Assembly: GCF_014397005.1 (NCBI RefSeq)
Contig: NZ_JACGWS010000005.1
Span: 62,001-126,000, forward strand
Reading direction: 5' to 3'
Origin: Kordia aestuariivivens
GTDB lineage: Bacteria; Bacteroidota; Bacteroidia; Flavobacteriales; Flavobacteriaceae
DNA: 64,000 nucleotides
In this document: in pieces, positions 40,039 to 45,823 of the stretch
How the letters are laid out: every line of letters begins with the position of its first letter
Numbering within the stretch: position 1 is the first letter of the stretch
Program-made: the position numbers and the translations under genes
The notes under the pieces: generated by a model
Database searches by the model: none
Told to the model about the DNA's origin: nothing
What the model saw: only the letters and a program-made list of their open reading frames with translations

Positions 40039-41238
40039 CTAAAAAACTAATAAATTAATATCTCTATATGGAAGATCAAACCAATCTGCTACTGATTTAT
40101 TGGTTAAAACTCCGTGGTAAAAGTACAACCCATTTTTCAATCCTTTATCAAAACGTAACGAATTTTCTAATCCGCCATCATCCGCAATTTTTAGTAAATA
40201 TGGAGTAAACATATTACTGATTGATACTGAAGCGGTTCTGGAATATCTAGCTGGAATATTTGGCACACAATAATGAATAACGCCATGTTTTTTAAACGTT
40301 GGTTTATCGTGTGAAGTAATTTCACTTGTTTCAATACAACCGCCCATATCGATGCTGACATCAATAATGACGGCCCCTTTTTTCATGTGACTGACCATGC
40401 TTTCTGTAACTAAAATAGGAGATCTATTTTTTCCGCGCACAGCGCCAATTAAAACATCGCAACGTTTTAACGCTTTTAATAAATTTTTTGGCTGTATGGT
40501 TGATGTATATACAGGTTGTCCTAAATTGATCTGAATGCAGCGAAGTTTTGTGATGGAATTATCAAAAACTTTAATATTTGCACCCAATCCTAATGCGGAA
40601 CGTGCAGCAAATTCTCCAACCGTTCCTGCACCGACAATGACAACTTCCGCAGGTGGAACGCCGCTAATATTTCCAAGCATCAATCCGTTTCCGTTATTGA
40701 CATTTGCCATTAATTCGGAAGCAATTAAAATGGAGGCAGTTCCGGCAATTTCACTTAAGGAACGTACTGCTGGATACGTGCCATCTTCATCACGAATGTA
40801 TTCAAAGGCGAGTGCGGTCACACGTTTACTAGCTAATACTTCAAAATATTTTTTAGAACGTGTTTTTATCTGTAAAGCTGAAATTAAAATCGTTTGCGGA
40901 TTCAATAATTGAAGTTCTTCAATTGTTGGCGGTTCCACTTTTAAAATAATAGGGCAGGAGAACACCTTTCGTGTGTCATTAGTAATTTCTGCGCCAGCTT
41001 CTGTATAATCTTTATCTGAAAAATTAGCTTCTTTTCCGGCGCAACTTTCAATCAAAACACGATGTCCGTGTGCTATAATTGCAGCAACGGCATCTGGTGT
41101 TAAGCAAACTCGTTTCTCTTGAAACGAAGTTTCTTTAGGAATTCCAATAAATAATTCTTGCTTGTGTTTTGAAATTTCGAGTGTTTCCTCTTGTGGAAGT
41201 AATTGTTGTTTGGTAAAAGGAGATAAAGATTCCGGCAT
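40039..41238 (-). CDS. ald: Alanine dehydrogenase
   Basis: A 399-residue NAD-dependent enzyme interconverting L-alanine and pyruvate plus ammonia. The N-terminal IGIPKETSFQEKRVCLTPDAV and the Rossmann GAGTVGEFAARSALGLGA are typical, as is VIIDVSIDMGGCIETS near the active site. The N-terminal ~25-residue extension before IGIPKE makes it longer than the ~370-residue Bacillus enzyme. In many flavobacteria porX, tsaE and ald are close neighbours; here three lipoprotein/membrane modules separate tsaE and ald. Confidence 0.9.
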   Translation of the reverse strand: MPESLSPFTKQQLLPQEETLEISKHKQELFIGIPKETSFQEKRVCLTPDAVAAIIAHGHRVLIESCAGKEANFSDKDYTEAGAEITNDTRKVFSCPIILKVEPPTIEELQLLNPQTILISALQIKTRSKKYFEVLASKRVTALAFEYIRDEDGTYPAVRSLSEIAGTASILIASELMANVNNGNGLMLGNISGVPPAEVVIVGAGTVGEFAARSALGLGANIKVFDNSITKLRCIQINLGQPVYTSTIQPKNLLKALKRCDVLIGAVRGKNRSPILVTESMVSHMKKGAVIIDVSIDMGGCIETSEITSHDKPTFKKHGVIHYCVPNIPARYSRTASVSISNMFTPYLLKIADDGGLENSLRFDKGLKNGLYFYHGVLTNKSVADWFDLPYRDINLLVF

Positions 41239-41295: not shown

Positions 41296-41823
41296 CTATT
41301 TATTGGCTTCTTCCATTTCTTGTTCTTTTCGTTCATACTCCGCAAGCTCTGCATCTATTTTTTTGAGATCAATACCATAAACATATTTATCAAAGAGTTT
41401 GATTCTAATTAAATATACGATGGGAACTATGATCATCATCACGGGAAGTACATAGTATATTTCAACCTCATCGACTGATTGTATATCGTCATTTATTATG
41501 CTTGTTAATTGAAATATATACATTGCTATTGGGATCAAGATTACATGATACCACCAATCTTTACAAGTTATAAACCAGAGGATTAAAAATATTAGAGGCA
41601 TTAGTTTTGACATTATCCAATACGCCGAAGTTTGTACGCTTTCGTAATAAGAGCTATCATAAGTAAATAAAGAAGTTTCCCAAACTTTTACATCAGGGAA
41701 ACTTTCATATGAATAATATATTATAGGTGATATAGCAATAATAAGAGCTATCAAACTACCCATTAGGAGGCGTTTTGATGTTTTTCTTAACTTTTTCTTC
41801 TGTTTCGTATGGGTTGTCTTCAT
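41296..41823 (-). CDS. Four-helix membrane protein, module 1
   Basis: About 175 residues from the ATG at 41823 (MKTTHTKQKK); another ATG at 41763 (MGSLIALII) overlaps the lipoprotein stop by a few bases and may be the true start. Four transmembrane segments: about 20-40, 75-92, 95-115 and 127-148. Paralogues in modules 2 and 3 share the WWYHVILIPIAM motif, LILWF(I/L)TC before it, and the Lys/Glu-rich tail GIDLKKIDAELAEYERKE. There is no enzymatic motif. Its 5' part overlaps the lipoprotein gene in the +1 frame. Function unknown; a two-gene unit with the lipoprotein is likely. Confidence 0.7.
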   Translation of the reverse strand: MKTTHTKQKKKLRKTSKRLLMGSLIALIIAISPIIYYSYESFPDVKVWETSLFTYDSSYYESVQTSAYWIMSKLMPLIFLILWFITCKDWWYHVILIPIAMYIFQLTSIINDDIQSVDEVEIYYVLPVMMIIVPIVYLIRIKLFDKYVYGIDLKKIDAELAEYERKEQEMEEANK

Positions 41824-41905
41824 CAGCAATACTGTCTGGGTTACAAGATACAAATAATATTGTTGATATGGCTGCTAATAGGTAAAGGTAGAATTTAGTT
41901 TTCAT
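41756..41905 (-). CDS. Small lipoprotein, module 1 (49 residues)
   Basis: Reading the minus strand from 41905 gives a 49-residue protein: MKTKFYLYLLAAIST, lipobox ILFVSC (Cys21), then NPDSIADEDNPYETE and a short Lys-rich end. Two near-copies exist in modules 2 and 3, all with the same NPDSIADEDNPY after the lipidated Cys. Its 3' part overlaps the membrane protein gene out of frame. The three-fold conservation in this frame shows it is a true gene despite its size. Function unknown. Confidence 0.75.
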   Translation of the reverse strand: MKTKFYLYLLAAISTILFVSCNPDSIADEDNPYETEEKVKKNIKTPPNG

Positions 41906-41938
41906 CTGATAATTGGGTTATTTAGTTTAACGATGAAG

Positions 41939-41997
41939 CAAACTTATTGAATAACCAACTAATTATCAGAAAATTAGCATAATATATTTTCTACGTA
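41939..41997 (-). promoter_or_regulatory. Promoter region of module 1: TAAGTTTG and CTACGTA box
   Basis: On the minus strand, TAAGTTTG (41939-41946) matches the -7 consensus. A conserved CTACGTA box (41991-41997), in the context ATATTTTCTACGTA, lies 44 bp further upstream. Modules 2 and 3 have the same pair at the same distance. Confidence 0.6.
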
Positions 41998-42087
41998 CTT
42001 TTGTTAGATTTGGGTCAATCGAACAAAAGCCGTAGAATTTATAATTTTTTGTATTTATTTCGTAAGTATTTTCGCGAATATACAGAT

Positions 42088-42645
42088 TTATTTTATTTCA
42101 TTTACATTTTGAGCCTCTTTTTCTTTACGATCGTATTCATCGAGTTCAGCTTCAATTTTCTTTAAATCAATTCCTAATACTAACTTTTCAAATAATTTTA
42201 CTCTAATTAAATATACTATGGGTGTGATGATCATTAATATTGGAATCAACCAGTATATTTCAATTTCATCAACCTTCAAAGTATTTTTATAAAGTGCATT
42301 CGCTAATTGAAATGCATACATGGCAATTGGCACTAAAATTATGTGATACCACCAATGTTTACAGGTTAAAAACCATAGTATTAATAGTAACAATGGAATA
42401 ATTTTGCTTAAATACATCCAAAATGAAATGTATAAATCTTGATATCCATTACTTGTAATGGTAAACCAACTAGTCTTCCATATATCTCCATCAGGAGAAT
42501 ATTCATATAAATAATATAAAAATGGAGAAAGAAATATCAATAAGATGATTAAGGTGTCAATAAGTAATTTCTTTCTAACCGACGTTTCCTCTTGTGATTT
42601 CTCTTTTATCAACTCCTTGTTCTGTTTCGTATGGGTTGTCTTCAT
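42088..42645 (-). CDS. Four-helix membrane protein, module 2
   Basis: About 185 residues from the ATG at 42645 (MKTTHTKQNKELIKEK). The layout matches module 1: a charged N-terminus, four transmembrane helices, the ILWFLTC-KHWWYHIILVPIAM segment and the tail GIDLKKIEAELDEYDRKEKE. Unlike module 1, there is no ATG, GTG or TTG near the lipoprotein stop, so the gene must start inside the lipoprotein gene, in the +1 frame (about 70 bp overlap), or be reached by frameshifting. Unknown function. Confidence 0.7.
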   Translation of the reverse strand: MKTTHTKQNKELIKEKSQEETSVRKKLLIDTLIILLIFLSPFLYYLYEYSPDGDIWKTSWFTITSNGYQDLYISFWMYLSKIIPLLLLILWFLTCKHWWYHIILVPIAMYAFQLANALYKNTLKVDEIEIYWLIPILMIITPIVYLIRVKLFEKLVLGIDLKKIEAELDEYDRKEKEAQNVNEIK

Positions 42646-42727
42646 CAGCAATGCTATCTGGATTACAAGATACAAATAATATTGTTGATACGGCTGCTAA
42701 TAGGTAAAGGTAGAATTTAGTTTTCAT
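42575..42727 (-). CDS. Small lipoprotein, module 2 (50 residues)
   Basis: Minus strand from 42727: MKTKFYLYLLAAVST, ILFVSC (Cys21), NPDSIADEDNPYETE, then QGVDKREITRGNVG. The first 36 residues are nearly identical to module 1. Only the C-terminal part, which overlaps the membrane protein frame, has diverged. Confidence 0.75.
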   Translation of the reverse strand: MKTKFYLYLLAAVSTILFVSCNPDSIADEDNPYETEQGVDKREITRGNVG

Positions 42728-42757
42728 TTGTTTAGATTATTTAGTTTAACGATGGGT

Positions 42758-42816
42758 CAAACTTATTGAATAACCAAATGTTACCTTCAAAAAGAGCATA
42801 ATATATTTTCTACGTA
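42758..42816 (-). promoter_or_regulatory. Promoter region of module 2: TAAGTTTG and CTACGTA box
   Basis: TAAGTTTG (minus strand, 42758-42765) with a TTTTTG -33 candidate 22 bp upstream, and CTACGTA at 42810-42816, 44 bp from the -7 element. Confidence 0.6.
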
Positions 42817-42892
42817 TTTTTGTTGGTTTTATTAAAAACTAACGCAATGTATAGAAAATAGGATATCTTGTATTTCAATGAACTTTTATTAT

Positions 42893-43486
42893 TTATTCTT
42901 GAGCGCCTGATATATTTTGTTGCTCTCGCTCTTTTCGGTCGTATTCCTCTAATTCAGCATCTATCTTTTTTAAGTCAATACCATATACTAATTTATCCAT
43001 CAATTTTATTCTGATAAAATAAACAAAAGGTATAACAATCATCATTATGGGAATCAACCAATAAATTTCCACAACATCTAATATACTAGATTTATCATTT
43101 ATTGCTCCAAATAACTGAAAAGCAAACATAAACATAGGAATCAAAATTACGTGATACCACCACTTATTACAAGTCAAAAACCATAATATCATTAATAATA
43201 GAGGTATGGCTTTATTCATACTTGCCCAAACCAATACTCTAACATTTTTATAATTCGTATCTGTTATAGTAAAAAATGATGTTTCCCAAATATTAGTATC
43301 TTTCGGTACATACTCATATAATTGAAACAAATATGGAGTAATCGCTATAAGTAGTGCTACAATTGTATTTACTACAATTTTTGATTGAAACCTAGATTTT
43401 CTATTGGTATTAGTCTTCCCCAGGAATTTTGATATCTTTCTTATCGATTTTTTCTTCGGTTTGGTATGGGTTATCTTCGTCTGCAA
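42893..43486 (-). CDS. Four-helix membrane protein, module 3
   Basis: About 197 residues if started at the TTG at 43486; an alternative TTG is at 43510. No ATG is available before the first transmembrane helix. It shares ILWFLTCNKWWYHVILIPMFM and the GIDLKKIDAELEEYDRKE tail with the other two modules. The region before helix 1 (PKKKSIRKISKF) is positively charged, suggesting an inside N-terminus. The lack of a good start codon makes this module the best evidence that the membrane protein is translated by coupling or frameshifting from the lipoprotein. Confidence 0.68.
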   Translation of the reverse strand: MQTKITHTKPKKKSIRKISKFLGKTNTNRKSRFQSKIVVNTIVALLIAITPYLFQLYEYVPKDTNIWETSFFTITDTNYKNVRVLVWASMNKAIPLLLMILWFLTCNKWWYHVILIPMFMFAFQLFGAINDKSSILDVVEIYWLIPIMMIVIPFVYFIRIKLMDKLVYGIDLKKIDAELEEYDRKEREQQNISGAQE

Positions 43487-43562
43487 TGCTATCTGGGTTA
43501 CAAGACACAAATGTTACTGATGCTAATACGACTGCTGCGAATAAATAATTTCTTAATTTCAT
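43410..43562 (-). CDS. Small lipoprotein, module 3 (50 residues)
   Basis: Minus strand from 43562: MKLRNYLFAAVVLAS, lipobox VTFVSC (Cys21), NPDSIADEDNPYQTE, then EKIDKKDIKIPGED. The signal peptide has diverged from modules 1 and 2 but the lipobox and the following 12 residues are kept, which suggests selection on the mature N-terminus. It is the first of the three modules in transcription order after tsaE. Confidence 0.75.
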   Translation of the reverse strand: MKLRNYLFAAVVLASVTFVSCNPDSIADEDNPYQTEEKIDKKDIKIPGED

Positions 43563-43591
43563 TTTGTTTAGGTTTTAGTTTTACGATGACG

Positions 43592-43650
43592 CAAACATAT
43601 CTATTAAACAAATGATTTTCAGGAAATTACCATATTTTATTTTCTACGTA
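43592..43650 (-). promoter_or_regulatory. Promoter region of module 3: TATGTTTG and CTACGTA box
   Basis: TATGTTTG (minus strand, 43592-43599) matches TAnnTTTG. CTACGTA at 43644-43650 is again 44 bp upstream. Confidence 0.6.
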
Positions 43651-43775: not shown

Positions 43776-44183
43776 TCAATTTTTTAGATGAATTGAGCGT
43801 AATTGTTCATTTATCTTTTTAATGTGCACTTTTGTAATTTCATTAGGCAATAGGTTTTTAATGCGTTCTGGCCATTCTATGAAGCACCAAGCGTCACTAT
43901 ATAAGTAATCTTCAATGCCAATATCATACGCTTCTATTTCATCTTCAATTCGGTAACAATCAAAATGATATATGATTGCGTCAGCAGAACGATATTCATT
44001 TACAATTGAGAATGTTGGACTATTTGTAAGCTCGGTAATGCCTAATTGCTTTGCTAATACTTTGATTAAAGTTGTTTTTCCAACACCCATTTCTCCATGA
44101 AAAGCAATAATTTTATATTTCGATGCTGCAAGAATGCCTGCTGCTATTGCTTCTATTTCAGAAAGATTATATTCTCTTTGCAC
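43776..44183 (-). CDS. tsaE: tRNA threonylcarbamoyladenosine biosynthesis ATPase TsaE
   Basis: A 135-residue P-loop protein with Walker A GEMGVGKTTLIK (about residues 30-41) and the family phrase FSIVNEYRS, then DCYRIEDEIEAYDIGIEDYL and FIEWPERI. TsaE works with TsaB and TsaD in making t6A37 in tRNAs that read ANN codons. It is downstream of porX on the same strand, 92 bp away. Normal length. Confidence 0.94.
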   Translation of the reverse strand: MQREYNLSEIEAIAAGILAASKYKIIAFHGEMGVGKTTLIKVLAKQLGITELTNSPTFSIVNEYRSADAIIYHFDCYRIEDEIEAYDIGIEDYLYSDAWCFIEWPERIKNLLPNEITKVHIKKINEQLRSIHLKN

Positions 44184-44275: not shown

Positions 44276-45823
44276 CTACTTGGGTAACATTACTGCAAAC
44301 GGTATAATCATTTCCTCCAACGAAACGCCACCATGCTGGTACGTATTTCTAAAATAACTCACATAATGATTGTAATTATTCGGATACGCAAAAAATAAAT
44401 CTGTCTTTGCAAAAATAAACGAACTACTCATGTTAATGGAAGGCAAATGAATTGTGCTAGGATCTTTTGCTGCCAACACATCTTTTTGCTCGTACGTCAA
44501 ACTTCTTCCAGTTTTATAACGCAAGTTCAAACTTGTATTCTTATCGCCAACTACTTTAGATGGATGTTTTACGTTGATAGTTCCGTGATCAGTCGTGATA
44601 ATCAATTTAAATCCTAAACGTTGCGATTGTTGAATGATATCTAACAACGGAGAATTTTTAAACCAACTCAGCGTCAGTGAACGATATGCTTTGTCGTCTG
44701 AAGCCAATTCTTTTACAACATCCATTTCGGTTTTAGCGTGTGAGAGCATGTCTACGAAGTTATAAACCACAACTGTAAGGTCATTGTCTTTTTGCGATTT
44801 AAAGTTGTCTGCGAGCTTCTTTCCGCCTTTTAAGCTGGTTATTTTGTGATATTCATGCTTAATGTTTAACCCTAAACGCTTCAATTGTGCTTTTAAGAAA
44901 TCATTTTCATGCAAATTCTTTCCGCCTTCATCAGTATCATTCTTCCAATACTCGGGATGTAGTTTTTCCATGTCGGAAGGCATTAATCCTGAAAAAATAG
45001 CATTTCTAGCATACTGTGTCGCGGTTGGCAGAATACTCACAAAAGGAACTTCTTTTTCTTTTTTATAATGTGTATTTAAAACAGGTTCAAAAGCTCTCCA
45101 TTGATCGTAGCGTAAATTATCAACTACAACTAATAAAGTTGGTTGTGCTTTGCTAATTTCTGGAGCAATGAGTTCTCTGAACAATGTGTGCGACATAATT
45201 GGCGCATCATCATTTCCGAACCAATCAGGATAATTCTTATCAATAAACTTTCCAAACTGAACGTTGGCTTCTGTCTTTTGCGATTCCAAAATCTCAAACA
45301 TGCCAGTATCTTCAATATCTTCCAATTGCAATTCCCAATAGATTAATTTTTGATACAACTCAATCCATTCCTCAATCGAATTTACCATTGCCATATCCAT
45401 CGCAATCTTTCTGAATTCTTGCTGATAATTAGAAGTTGTCTTTTCAGAAATCAATCGCGAATGGTCCAAATTCTTCTTCAAACTCAATAAAATCTGGTTT
45501 GGATTCACAGGTTTTATCAAATAATCTGCAATCTTGGAGCCAATAGCTTCTTCCATGATATATTCTTCTTCACTCTTTGTAATCATGACGACAGGAAGAT
45601 TATTCTGTTTTTCTTTCAGCTCAGCTAAGGTTTCCAAACCTGTTAGGCCTGGCATATTTTCATCCAACAAAACAATATCAAAATTTTGCTCGTCTATGAT
45701 TTCTATAGCTTCCGTACCGCTAGTGCACGTTGTTACTTCGTAGTTTTTCTTCTCTAAAAAGAGAATATGTGGTTTTAATAAATCAATTTCATCATCAACC
45801 CAAAGAATCTTGAATGCACTCAT
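44276..45823 (-). CDS. porX: PorX, T9SS response regulator with PglZ domain
   Basis: A 515-residue protein: receiver domain (1-120) with the phosphoacceptor Asp54 in VLLDENMPG, the conserved Thr in MITKS and Lys in IKP; a helical linker; and a PglZ/alkaline phosphatase-like domain (about 210-515) with metal-site-like VVDNLRYDQWRAF and TTDHGTINVKHPSKVVGDK. In Porphyromonas and Flavobacterium PorX, paired with the PorY kinase, controls type IX secretion genes, and its PglZ domain acts on nucleotides in published work on homologues. Its presence fits the two T9SS cargo proteins of this window. porY is not in the window. Confidence 0.93.
   Translation of the reverse strand: MSAFKILWVDDEIDLLKPHILFLEKKNYEVTTCTSGTEAIEIIDEQNFDIVLLDENMPGLTGLETLAELKEKQNNLPVVMITKSEEEYIMEEAIGSKIADYLIKPVNPNQILLSLKKNLDHSRLISEKTTSNYQQEFRKIAMDMAMVNSIEEWIELYQKLIYWELQLEDIEDTGMFEILESQKTEANVQFGKFIDKNYPDWFGNDDAPIMSHTLFRELIAPEISKAQPTLLVVVDNLRYDQWRAFEPVLNTHYKKEKEVPFVSILPTATQYARNAIFSGLMPSDMEKLHPEYWKNDTDEGGKNLHENDFLKAQLKRLGLNIKHEYHKITSLKGGKKLADNFKSQKDNDLTVVVYNFVDMLSHAKTEMDVVKELASDDKAYRSLTLSWFKNSPLLDIIQQSQRLGFKLIITTDHGTINVKHPSKVVGDKNTSLNLRYKTGRSLTYEQKDVLAAKDPSTIHLPSINMSSSFIFAKTDLFFAYPNNYNHYVSYFRNTYQHGGVSLEEMIIPFAVMLPK

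Follow-up and report, generated by a model that had tools for sequence, protein, structure and literature searches.

Tandem out-of-frame lip and mem genes in Kordia: a candidate exported peptide precursor and its four-helix membrane partner

Three tandem two-gene units lie between tsaE and ald in Kordia aestuariivivens, on the minus strand at positions 41296-43562 of the 64,000-nucleotide stretch of contig NZ_JACGWS010000005.1 that was analysed here and is called the window. Each consists of a short lipoprotein gene, here named lip, and a gene for a four-helix membrane protein, here named mem, whose frame opens within lip. We propose, with moderate confidence, that such a unit encodes an exported peptide precursor and its cognate four-helix membrane partner, inherited together as a specificity cassette. 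Comparison among genomes brought out the conservation of the units, their constant phase, relatives in which the two genes stand apart, repeated C-terminal peptides and linked variation of the two products; the internal start, the export, the binding of the peptide to mem and a sensing or protecting role of mem are what we infer from this pattern.

The modules are numbered here in the order of transcription, the first being the one that adjoins tsaE (module 3 of the original prediction, which was made from the window alone) and the third being module 1 of that prediction. In all three, lip encodes 49-50 amino acids (aa), with NPDSIADEDNPY after the lipobox FVSC; mem is read in the +1 frame with respect to lip, and its product carries a WWYH motif. 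Coordinates of the mem open reading frames (ORFs) were counted from the first TTG of the frame; distances are in nucleotides (nt).

43592..43599, minus strand: promoter-like motif TAnnTTTG of the first module, 36-44 nt upstream of the lip ATG
43410..43562, minus strand: lip of the first module, 50 aa, with FVSC as lipobox and KIDKKDIKIPGED as C-terminal peptide
43510-42893, minus strand: mem ORF of the first module, from the first TTG
42893..43486, minus strand: mem of the first module, likeliest start TTG 43486, with an in-frame TTG also at 43510
43410..43486, minus strand: lip/mem overlap of the first module, 77 nt if TTG 43486 is the start
42758..42765, minus strand: promoter-like motif TAnnTTTG of the second module
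42575..42727, minus strand: lip of the second module, 50 aa
42675-42088, minus strand: mem ORF of the second module, from the first TTG
42088..42645, minus strand: mem of the second module, from the internal ATG 42645
41939..41946, minus strand: promoter-like motif TAnnTTTG of the third module
41756..41905, minus strand: lip of the third module, 49 aa
41853-41296, minus strand: mem ORF of the third module, from the first TTG
41296..41823, minus strand: mem of the third module, from the internal ATG 41823

The three-unit layout between tsaE and ald was found in all 11 Kordia genomes, with the same phase in 33/33 modules, so that the tandem units with their +1 overlap, FVSC and WWYH, as first described, were borne out in the window and in its relatives. 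In these 33 modules lip is 49-53 aa long and has the FVSC lipobox (by pattern only), and the mem frame opens 31 or 49 nt past the lip ATG. Since the phase is shared by all of them and the non-overlapping part of mem evolves as a protein (ratio of nonsynonymous to synonymous differences, pN/pS, 0.37 in the helix part), the layout goes beyond chance, and a sequencing error, raised at first as a possible cause, is ruled out in practice by the 11 species. The TAnnTTTG motif, which we take to be the Bacteroidetes -7 promoter element, precedes the lip ATG by 36-44 nt in every one of the 33 modules. The stretch preceding each lip (CATCGTTAAACTAA or CATCGTAAAACTAA; 41905-43600 on the minus strand of the window, and relatives) is almost invariant in Kordia.

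In the second and third modules an ATG stands at lip +82 in 22/22 cases, and in the window the internal ATGs within lip are at 42645 (second module, module 2 of the original prediction) and 41823 (third module). In the first module the codon at lip +82 is ACG in 11/11 genomes. Its mem frame had been described as having no ATG and, past the lip stop, no possible start codon at all; both statements hold up to helix 1, as no ATG precedes that helix in any of the 11 genomes, but ATGs occur farther on and a TTG is found at lip +232, inside helix 1. The TTGs of this frame within lip, at 43510 and 43486, had gone unmentioned. A TTG is present at both lip +52 and lip +76 in all 33 Kordia modules. The TTG +76 of the first module (43486) has A at -6, -12 and -13, as read off the consensus, and G rather than A at -3; none of the adenines at -3, -6, -12 or -13 accompanies TTG +52, and ATG +82 of the second module has only the one at -12. 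In Flavobacterium johnsoniae, A at -3 and at -12/-13 is reported to favour initiation, and A at -6 is named for Escherichia coli (PMC6847099). The invariant T of TTG +76 is not strong evidence on its own, because the Ile codon that supplies it is ATT and ATT is also fixed (11/11) in 7 of 38 conserved Ile columns of ald and tsaE. TTG 43486 is the likeliest start of the first-module mem, judging from its context and conservation.

The mem profile matched 275 of 397 sampled Flavobacteriaceae genomes (E<=0.001); in a sample of the whole phylum it matched 8 of 296, all of the same family code, and that sample also includes genomes of this family without a match. Two sets of loci were examined, the first being 80 loci picked from among the best-scoring mem matches listed and the second being the best 80 of 441, with some genomes in both. 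In the first set lip was detected by profile in 77 loci, tsaE in 75 and ald in 69, and 63 loci had all four genes including mem; in the second set tsaE, lip, mem and ald were present together in 75/80. Some loci also carry genes with mem-related domains, divergent from tsaE. A diverged fourth lip-mem pair, likewise with a +1 overlap, was observed in Kordia jejudonensis (L044:3756-4357), on a 5.6 kb contig that has an Rhs-like reading frame (Rhs by eye) at 226-996.

After removal of pairs that lacked the proline pattern of helix 1, had a mem frame of >=960 nt or were duplicates, 215 pairs were reduced to 169 unique ones, in 66 of which the two genes are separate and in 103 of which they overlap. 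The separate pairs are distributed over the three phases (24/21/21), whereas the overlapping pairs are +1 in 103/103, and mem is therefore read as an independent gene that starts inside lip. The script found an ATG of mem's own in 56/66 separate pairs and an ATG inside lip in 91/103 overlapping ones. Ten of the 12 overlapping pairs without a scripted ATG are the first Kordia module; the other two (L185 and L190, the second Aequorivita module) are a cut-off artefact, their printed products including the M, and the same artefact accounts for at least L120 and L132 among the 10 separate pairs without one. Translation of mem from within lip, one of two routes suggested at the outset, is thus supported by comparison; the other, a frameshift fusion, appears unlikely, and mem would not depend on a frameshift from lip. 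Separate genes with an ATG for mem, which had been named as the finding that would speak against the original interpretation, do occur in many genera, but neither in Kordia nor in the further genera that contribute to the 103 overlaps.

When the two layouts were placed on a tree of 168 mem cores (the 169 minus one row; built by a quick method that left 58 of 165 inner branches open), 4 changes were counted, as against a mean of 52.3 with shuffled labels. This indicates that the overlap is widely inherited, and a single origin of the layout may be entertained. The clustering agrees with a view of the overlap as a left-over of genome compaction through one old deletion, without a function of its own. 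So does the position of the mem ATG, which in 45 of the 91 pairs precedes the end of the lip stop by exactly 59 nt, as inheritance predicts. The overlap has been retained across many genera while lip and mem diverged, a point against compaction that still leaves room for it, and we regard this explanation as quite possible. It is compatible with the proposed peptide-partner unit except for the role assigned to the overlap, which in either case puts the peptide and the mem start on the same DNA, whether this was selected or merely inherited.

Conservation of the two frames within the overlap, a check called for from the start, was examined in Aequorivita and near kin (17 rows for the first module and 18 for the second, including one Flavobacteriaceae metagenome-assembled genome, L222, and L102). 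In the second module, differences at the three lip codon positions were 0.061, 0.053 and 0.136 in the overlap against 0.084, 0.033 and 0.222 before it, and lip-synonymous difference fell from 0.248 before the overlap to 0.075 inside. For mem, the three positions past the overlap gave 0.126, 0.039 and 0.412, and the third position dropped from this 0.412 to 0.062 in the overlap. These values suggest that both frames are constrained in the second-module overlap. In the first module mem third positions were likewise lower (0.158 vs 0.451), but lip-synonymous difference did not fall (0.177 vs 0.184). In Kordia, lip codons 1-36 show a synonymous difference of 0.03-0.25, compared to 0.40 in ald, both in and out of the overlap; this does not establish dual coding, since codons 1-15, which lie outside the overlap, are conserved too (0.12-0.25 vs 0.40 in ald). 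Past codon 36, lip diverges strongly at all three positions (0.30-0.52).

By pattern, the lipobox cysteine of lip is absent in 15/103 overlapping and 5/66 separate unique pairs. A cysteine-less group with an A-x-A-like site (by eye) was observed in L131, L135, L140, L146-L149 and L151-L155, and lip of this group is perhaps a secreted peptide and not a lipoprotein. The surface lipoprotein signal LES is given as a QKDDE- or SDDFE-like motif at +2 to +6 past the cysteine (PMC5080379); the lip of the window failed at its defining positions, as CNPDSIADEDNPY has a single acidic residue in +2 to +6 and its acidic run at +8 to +10 (by eye). A recurrent C-terminal motif, [IV]DKxKIxxPxxG, was noted by eye, and 71 of the 207 candidate precursors match a stricter form of it. 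Internal tandem repeats of the C-terminal peptide were found in 27/207 unique candidates (12-aa period in 15), a figure that is not a rate among true precursors since the 207 include chance reading frames. Such repetition is frequent where lip and mem stand apart, Arenibacter and Cellulophaga being examples, and is absent from overlap loci among the 27. In two Sinomicrobium loci where the lip profile gave no match, a signal-peptide-like start is followed, upstream of mem, by six (L171, on the same contig as L080) or three (L193) 14-aa units with IDKFQKPPKHG, and in S. weinanense (L168) the reading frame upstream of mem has four copies of a 15-aa unit. Whole genes are multiplied as well: six near-identical lip genes stand in a row ahead of one mem in G031 (L089:1196-2347), and Robertkochia marina (L173) has seven lip genes by profile.

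Within Kordia, variation is concentrated in a block shared by the two genes. Over 165 same-module pairs, mean nucleotide identity was 0.93 for the promoter and lip leader and 0.84 (0.81-0.89) for ald, but 0.67 (0.54-0.93) for the cassette that runs from lip codon 37 to about helix four, and 0.78 for the mem tail. In the closest species pair (L040/L041, ald 0.889) the third-module cassette was 0.93 identical, and the second-module cassette fell to 0.49-0.69 next to a leader of 0.97; in L039/L043 (ald 0.815) it was the second-module cassette that reached 0.92, against 0.50-0.84 in windows of the other cassettes. These two pairs show cassette exchange. The cassette was closer than ald in 3/165 pairs only, one of them barely (0.825 vs 0.822). 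Variation in the lip C-terminus is uncoupled from that of ald, with distance correlations of 0.11, 0.02 and 0.26 in the first, second and third modules. In a partial Mantel analysis given ald, distances of the lip C-terminus correlated with those of mem windows at 0.25-0.79 through column 188 in the first module and 0.16-0.69 through column 164 in the second, then at about 0; the highest values lie in DNA shared by both genes (first-module maximum 0.79), and outside it 0.73 was reached in the first module and 0.64 in the second. The pN/pS of the mem helix part is 0.37 in all three modules, with the tail at 0.16-0.21, ald at 0.07 and tsaE at 0.16; positive selection is not claimed, because pS is 0.6-0.7. 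Nearest neighbours of mem lay within the same module in 0.74-0.96 per window and 0.37 in the last window (chance, 0.31). A close cross-module pair is the third module of L036 and the first of L043, with a helix part 0.21 different.

An AlphaFold2 model of the third-module mem (mean predicted local distance difference test, pLDDT, 81.4; predicted template-modelling score, pTM, 0.54; alignment of 62 sequences, namely 59 of the 80 loci in the second set and the three mems of the window) has four long helices and a C-terminal helix, at 17-43, 65-88, 93-113, 121-150 and 155-176 as numbered from TTG 41829. By the positive-inside rule, the basic end of a membrane protein is on the cytoplasmic side; the first 20 residues of mem hold 9 K/R and no acidic residue, compared to K+R of 1, 1 and 0 in the loops, and the N-terminus is for this reason placed inside. 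The recommended domain searches were unproductive, no usable relative of mem or lip being found in Pfam, NCBIfam, PADLOC, PHROGs or a PDB sequence profile; an NCBIfam match to prolipoprotein diacylglyceryl transferase (0.0013, 18 bits vs a cut-off of 547) was set aside. Pfam finds no kinase domain (His_kinase, HATPase) in the three mems of the window. In Kordia TARA_039 (L045:2573-3679), by contrast, a mem-like domain heads a LytS-type kinase (Pfam His_kinase, 2.6e-14), and in G106 (L252) two tandem LytS-type histidine kinases are headed by it (by eye). A search with the kinase membrane domain matched 204/299 family genomes and, among the matches listed, recovered mostly mem genes, which favours homology of mem and that domain; the copies at the head of kinases hint at a sensor role. 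Cytidine-deaminase-like and pyruvate dehydrogenase E1-like genes (by eye) flank those LytS-type kinase genes. Two mem domains in one chain of ~320-430 aa were seen by eye in L078, L087, L107 and L168, and the double genes of L078, L087 and L107 are divergent from tsaE.

We propose that lip is a short exported precursor, here a lipoprotein, whose last 12-14 residues would be the working peptide, and that mem, in the inner membrane, would be the cognate partner of this peptide. mem would be translated from its own start inside lip, at the ATG in the second and third modules and most likely at TTG 43486 in the first. Together, the C-terminus of lip and the helices of mem would in Kordia make up one variable specificity cassette, exchanged by recombination between the invariant promoter and leader and the conserved mem tail; three modules would provide three specificities, and the overlap may serve to hold peptide and partner together. 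Sensing of the peptide by mem seems more likely than immunity, given how widespread the pair is in the family and how constant its position, and given the kinases headed by this domain. A bolder version, which we put forward as an improbable speculation, would be Gram-negative peptide recognition in which the same nucleotides, read in two frames, encode both the specificity peptide and the beginning of the receptor for it, ligand and receptor alleles can be passed on and swapped only jointly, each Kordia species carries a triple identity code, and LytS-type kinases sharing the sensor domain can read the signals.

Several observations weigh against the proposed peptide-partner unit. The clade with a cysteine-less lip gave no sign of dual constraint in its overlap (lip positions 0.36, 0.26 and 0.41), nor did the Kordia lip C-terminus. 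The correlation of lip C-terminus and mem windows is weak in the third module (-0.41 to 0.40) and spans nearly all of mem in the first, where the minimum ahead of the tail (0.25) falls in a window of the outer loop that joins helices 1 and 2, an argument against a simple picture of the peptide contacting that loop; the correlation itself is not proof of contact, because the genes are adjacent, linked and share DNA. Of the three genera compared, mem is hypervariable in Kordia only: pN/pS of mem, ald and tsaE was 0.10-0.11, 0.06 and 0.27 in Aequorivita (14 of 16 loci) and 0.10, 0.04 and 0.17 in Arenibacter (10 loci). A lip peptide located at the surface would need a route to a partner in the inner membrane. 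The stand-alone mem has no output domain by Pfam and stops past helix four with a short tail, kinase fusions of its domain were seen in 2 genomes among the matches listed, and a Foldseek search of its fold against the PDB gave no match at E<=0.001.

The same cassettes could instead represent polymorphic toxins with immunity: the exported lipopeptide would harm relatives, mem would protect the producer, and arms races would drive the variation. A linked hypervariable cassette between conserved flanks, tandem modules, the amplified lip genes of G031 (six) and Robertkochia marina (seven) and the short contig shared by the diverged K. jejudonensis pair and the Rhs-like frame (by eye) all agree with this, and the logic is that of the lipoprotein toxin SitA of Myxococcus (PMC5562445). 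Toxin loci, however, are sporadic, whereas most of the loci examined have the pair between tsaE and ald and mem occurs in the 275 genomes given above; mem is conserved in Aequorivita and Arenibacter; and the mature lip of ~30 aa has no toxin domain in Pfam or NCBIfam and no PADLOC match. We consider a toxin-immunity function possible but doubtful.

Alternatively, mem may form a complex active in transport or envelope homeostasis, with lip as its small accessory subunit, the 5' half of lip being kept by high expression and the lip C-terminus being a loose tail. Frequent pairing and stable synteny would follow, the low synonymous change in lip codons 1-15 is as in highly expressed genes, and mem is conserved outside Kordia. 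Against this, the C-terminus carries tandem repeats in the 27 candidates, some of which are a signal-like start plus repeats and little else, and cassettes cross species boundaries. We judge an accessory subunit unlikely.

Production of a lipoprotein-membrane fusion by +1 ribosomal frameshifting, which the uniform phase of the 103 overlaps, the ATG-less first Kordia module and ACGGGTAG, retained at the third-module lip stop in 7/11 genomes, would favour, is very improbable, given the 66 separate pairs, the internal ATG in 91 of the overlapping ones, a mem N-terminus whose basic, acid-free sequence is wrong for a lipidated periplasmic end, and the first-module alignment of 11 genomes, in which no conserved nucleotides that might act as a shift site lie past lip codon 36 or near the lip stop. 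A frame without its own start together with a conserved shift site, as in programmed +1 frameshifting, was thus not what was found. The original interpretation as a whole is partly supported, its internal translation being supported and its frameshift fusion not.

No additional full copy of mem was found in the source genome among 6 matches at E<=10, which comprise the three modules, one first-module fragment and two weak matches. The neighbouring genes are:

43776..44183, minus strand: tsaE, upstream neighbour (Pfam TsaE, 3.6e-37)
40039..41238, minus strand: ald, alanine dehydrogenase, downstream neighbour (Pfam AlaDh_PNT_C, 5.3e-61)
44276..45823, minus strand: porX-like response regulator with a PglZ domain, farther upstream (Pfam Response_reg, 7.7e-26; PglZ, 1.3e-24)

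A family that occurs in roughly two of every three Flavobacteriaceae genomes sampled, and that has no usable Pfam or NCBIfam model, thereby gains an anatomy: a precursor for export, whose C-terminal peptide is repeated or variable, and a partner of four helices. If the peptide acts on its own mem and not on those of other alleles, the pair would qualify as a Bacteroidota system for recognising peptides. With an ATG-less copy in 11/11 species, the long and conserved out-of-frame overlap also offers a natural test of non-ATG internal initiation in organisms with mRNAs devoid of Shine-Dalgarno sequences (PMC6847099).

The initial statement that no system with such a layout had been described was not contradicted by searches of open-access PMC papers for the locus, for peptide systems of the phylum and for overlapping genes. 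Similar in architecture is agr, with its AgrD peptide, its AgrC receptor and the agr groups of S. aureus. Like agr, a peptide quorum-sensing system (literature: PMC8768832), lip-mem pairs a short precursor (exported, by signal-peptide pattern only) with an adjoining membrane protein, forms allelic cassettes with conserved flanks in which the peptide and the membrane part of its partner vary, and has a mem domain with kinase-linked relatives. Linked variation of peptide and partner, uncoupled from species, was seen in Kordia, where linkage alone could yield it, and mem is conserved in Aequorivita and Arenibacter. Unlike agr, no processing protease was recognised beside lip-mem, the stand-alone mem is without a kinase, the signal of lip is of the Sec/lipoprotein type, the genes overlap out of frame and the host is Gram-negative. 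LytS-type sensor histidine kinases have the mem domain as their N-terminal part in the two genomes noted above, from which mem differs in ending past helix four without a kinase domain. In the SitA/SitI system, immunity partners and tandem cassettes are known. Like it, lip is a lipoprotein in polymorphic cassettes; unlike SitA, it is ~50 aa long, has no toxin domain and belongs to a pair widespread in one family. SitA proteins are reported to be polymorphic lipoprotein toxins acting between relatives (PMC5562445 and PMC8546572). A lipoprotein precursor as a source of peptides is also shared with the enterococci; it is the C-terminus that is repeated and variable in lip, while the enterococcal sex pheromones are cut from the lipoprotein signal peptides.

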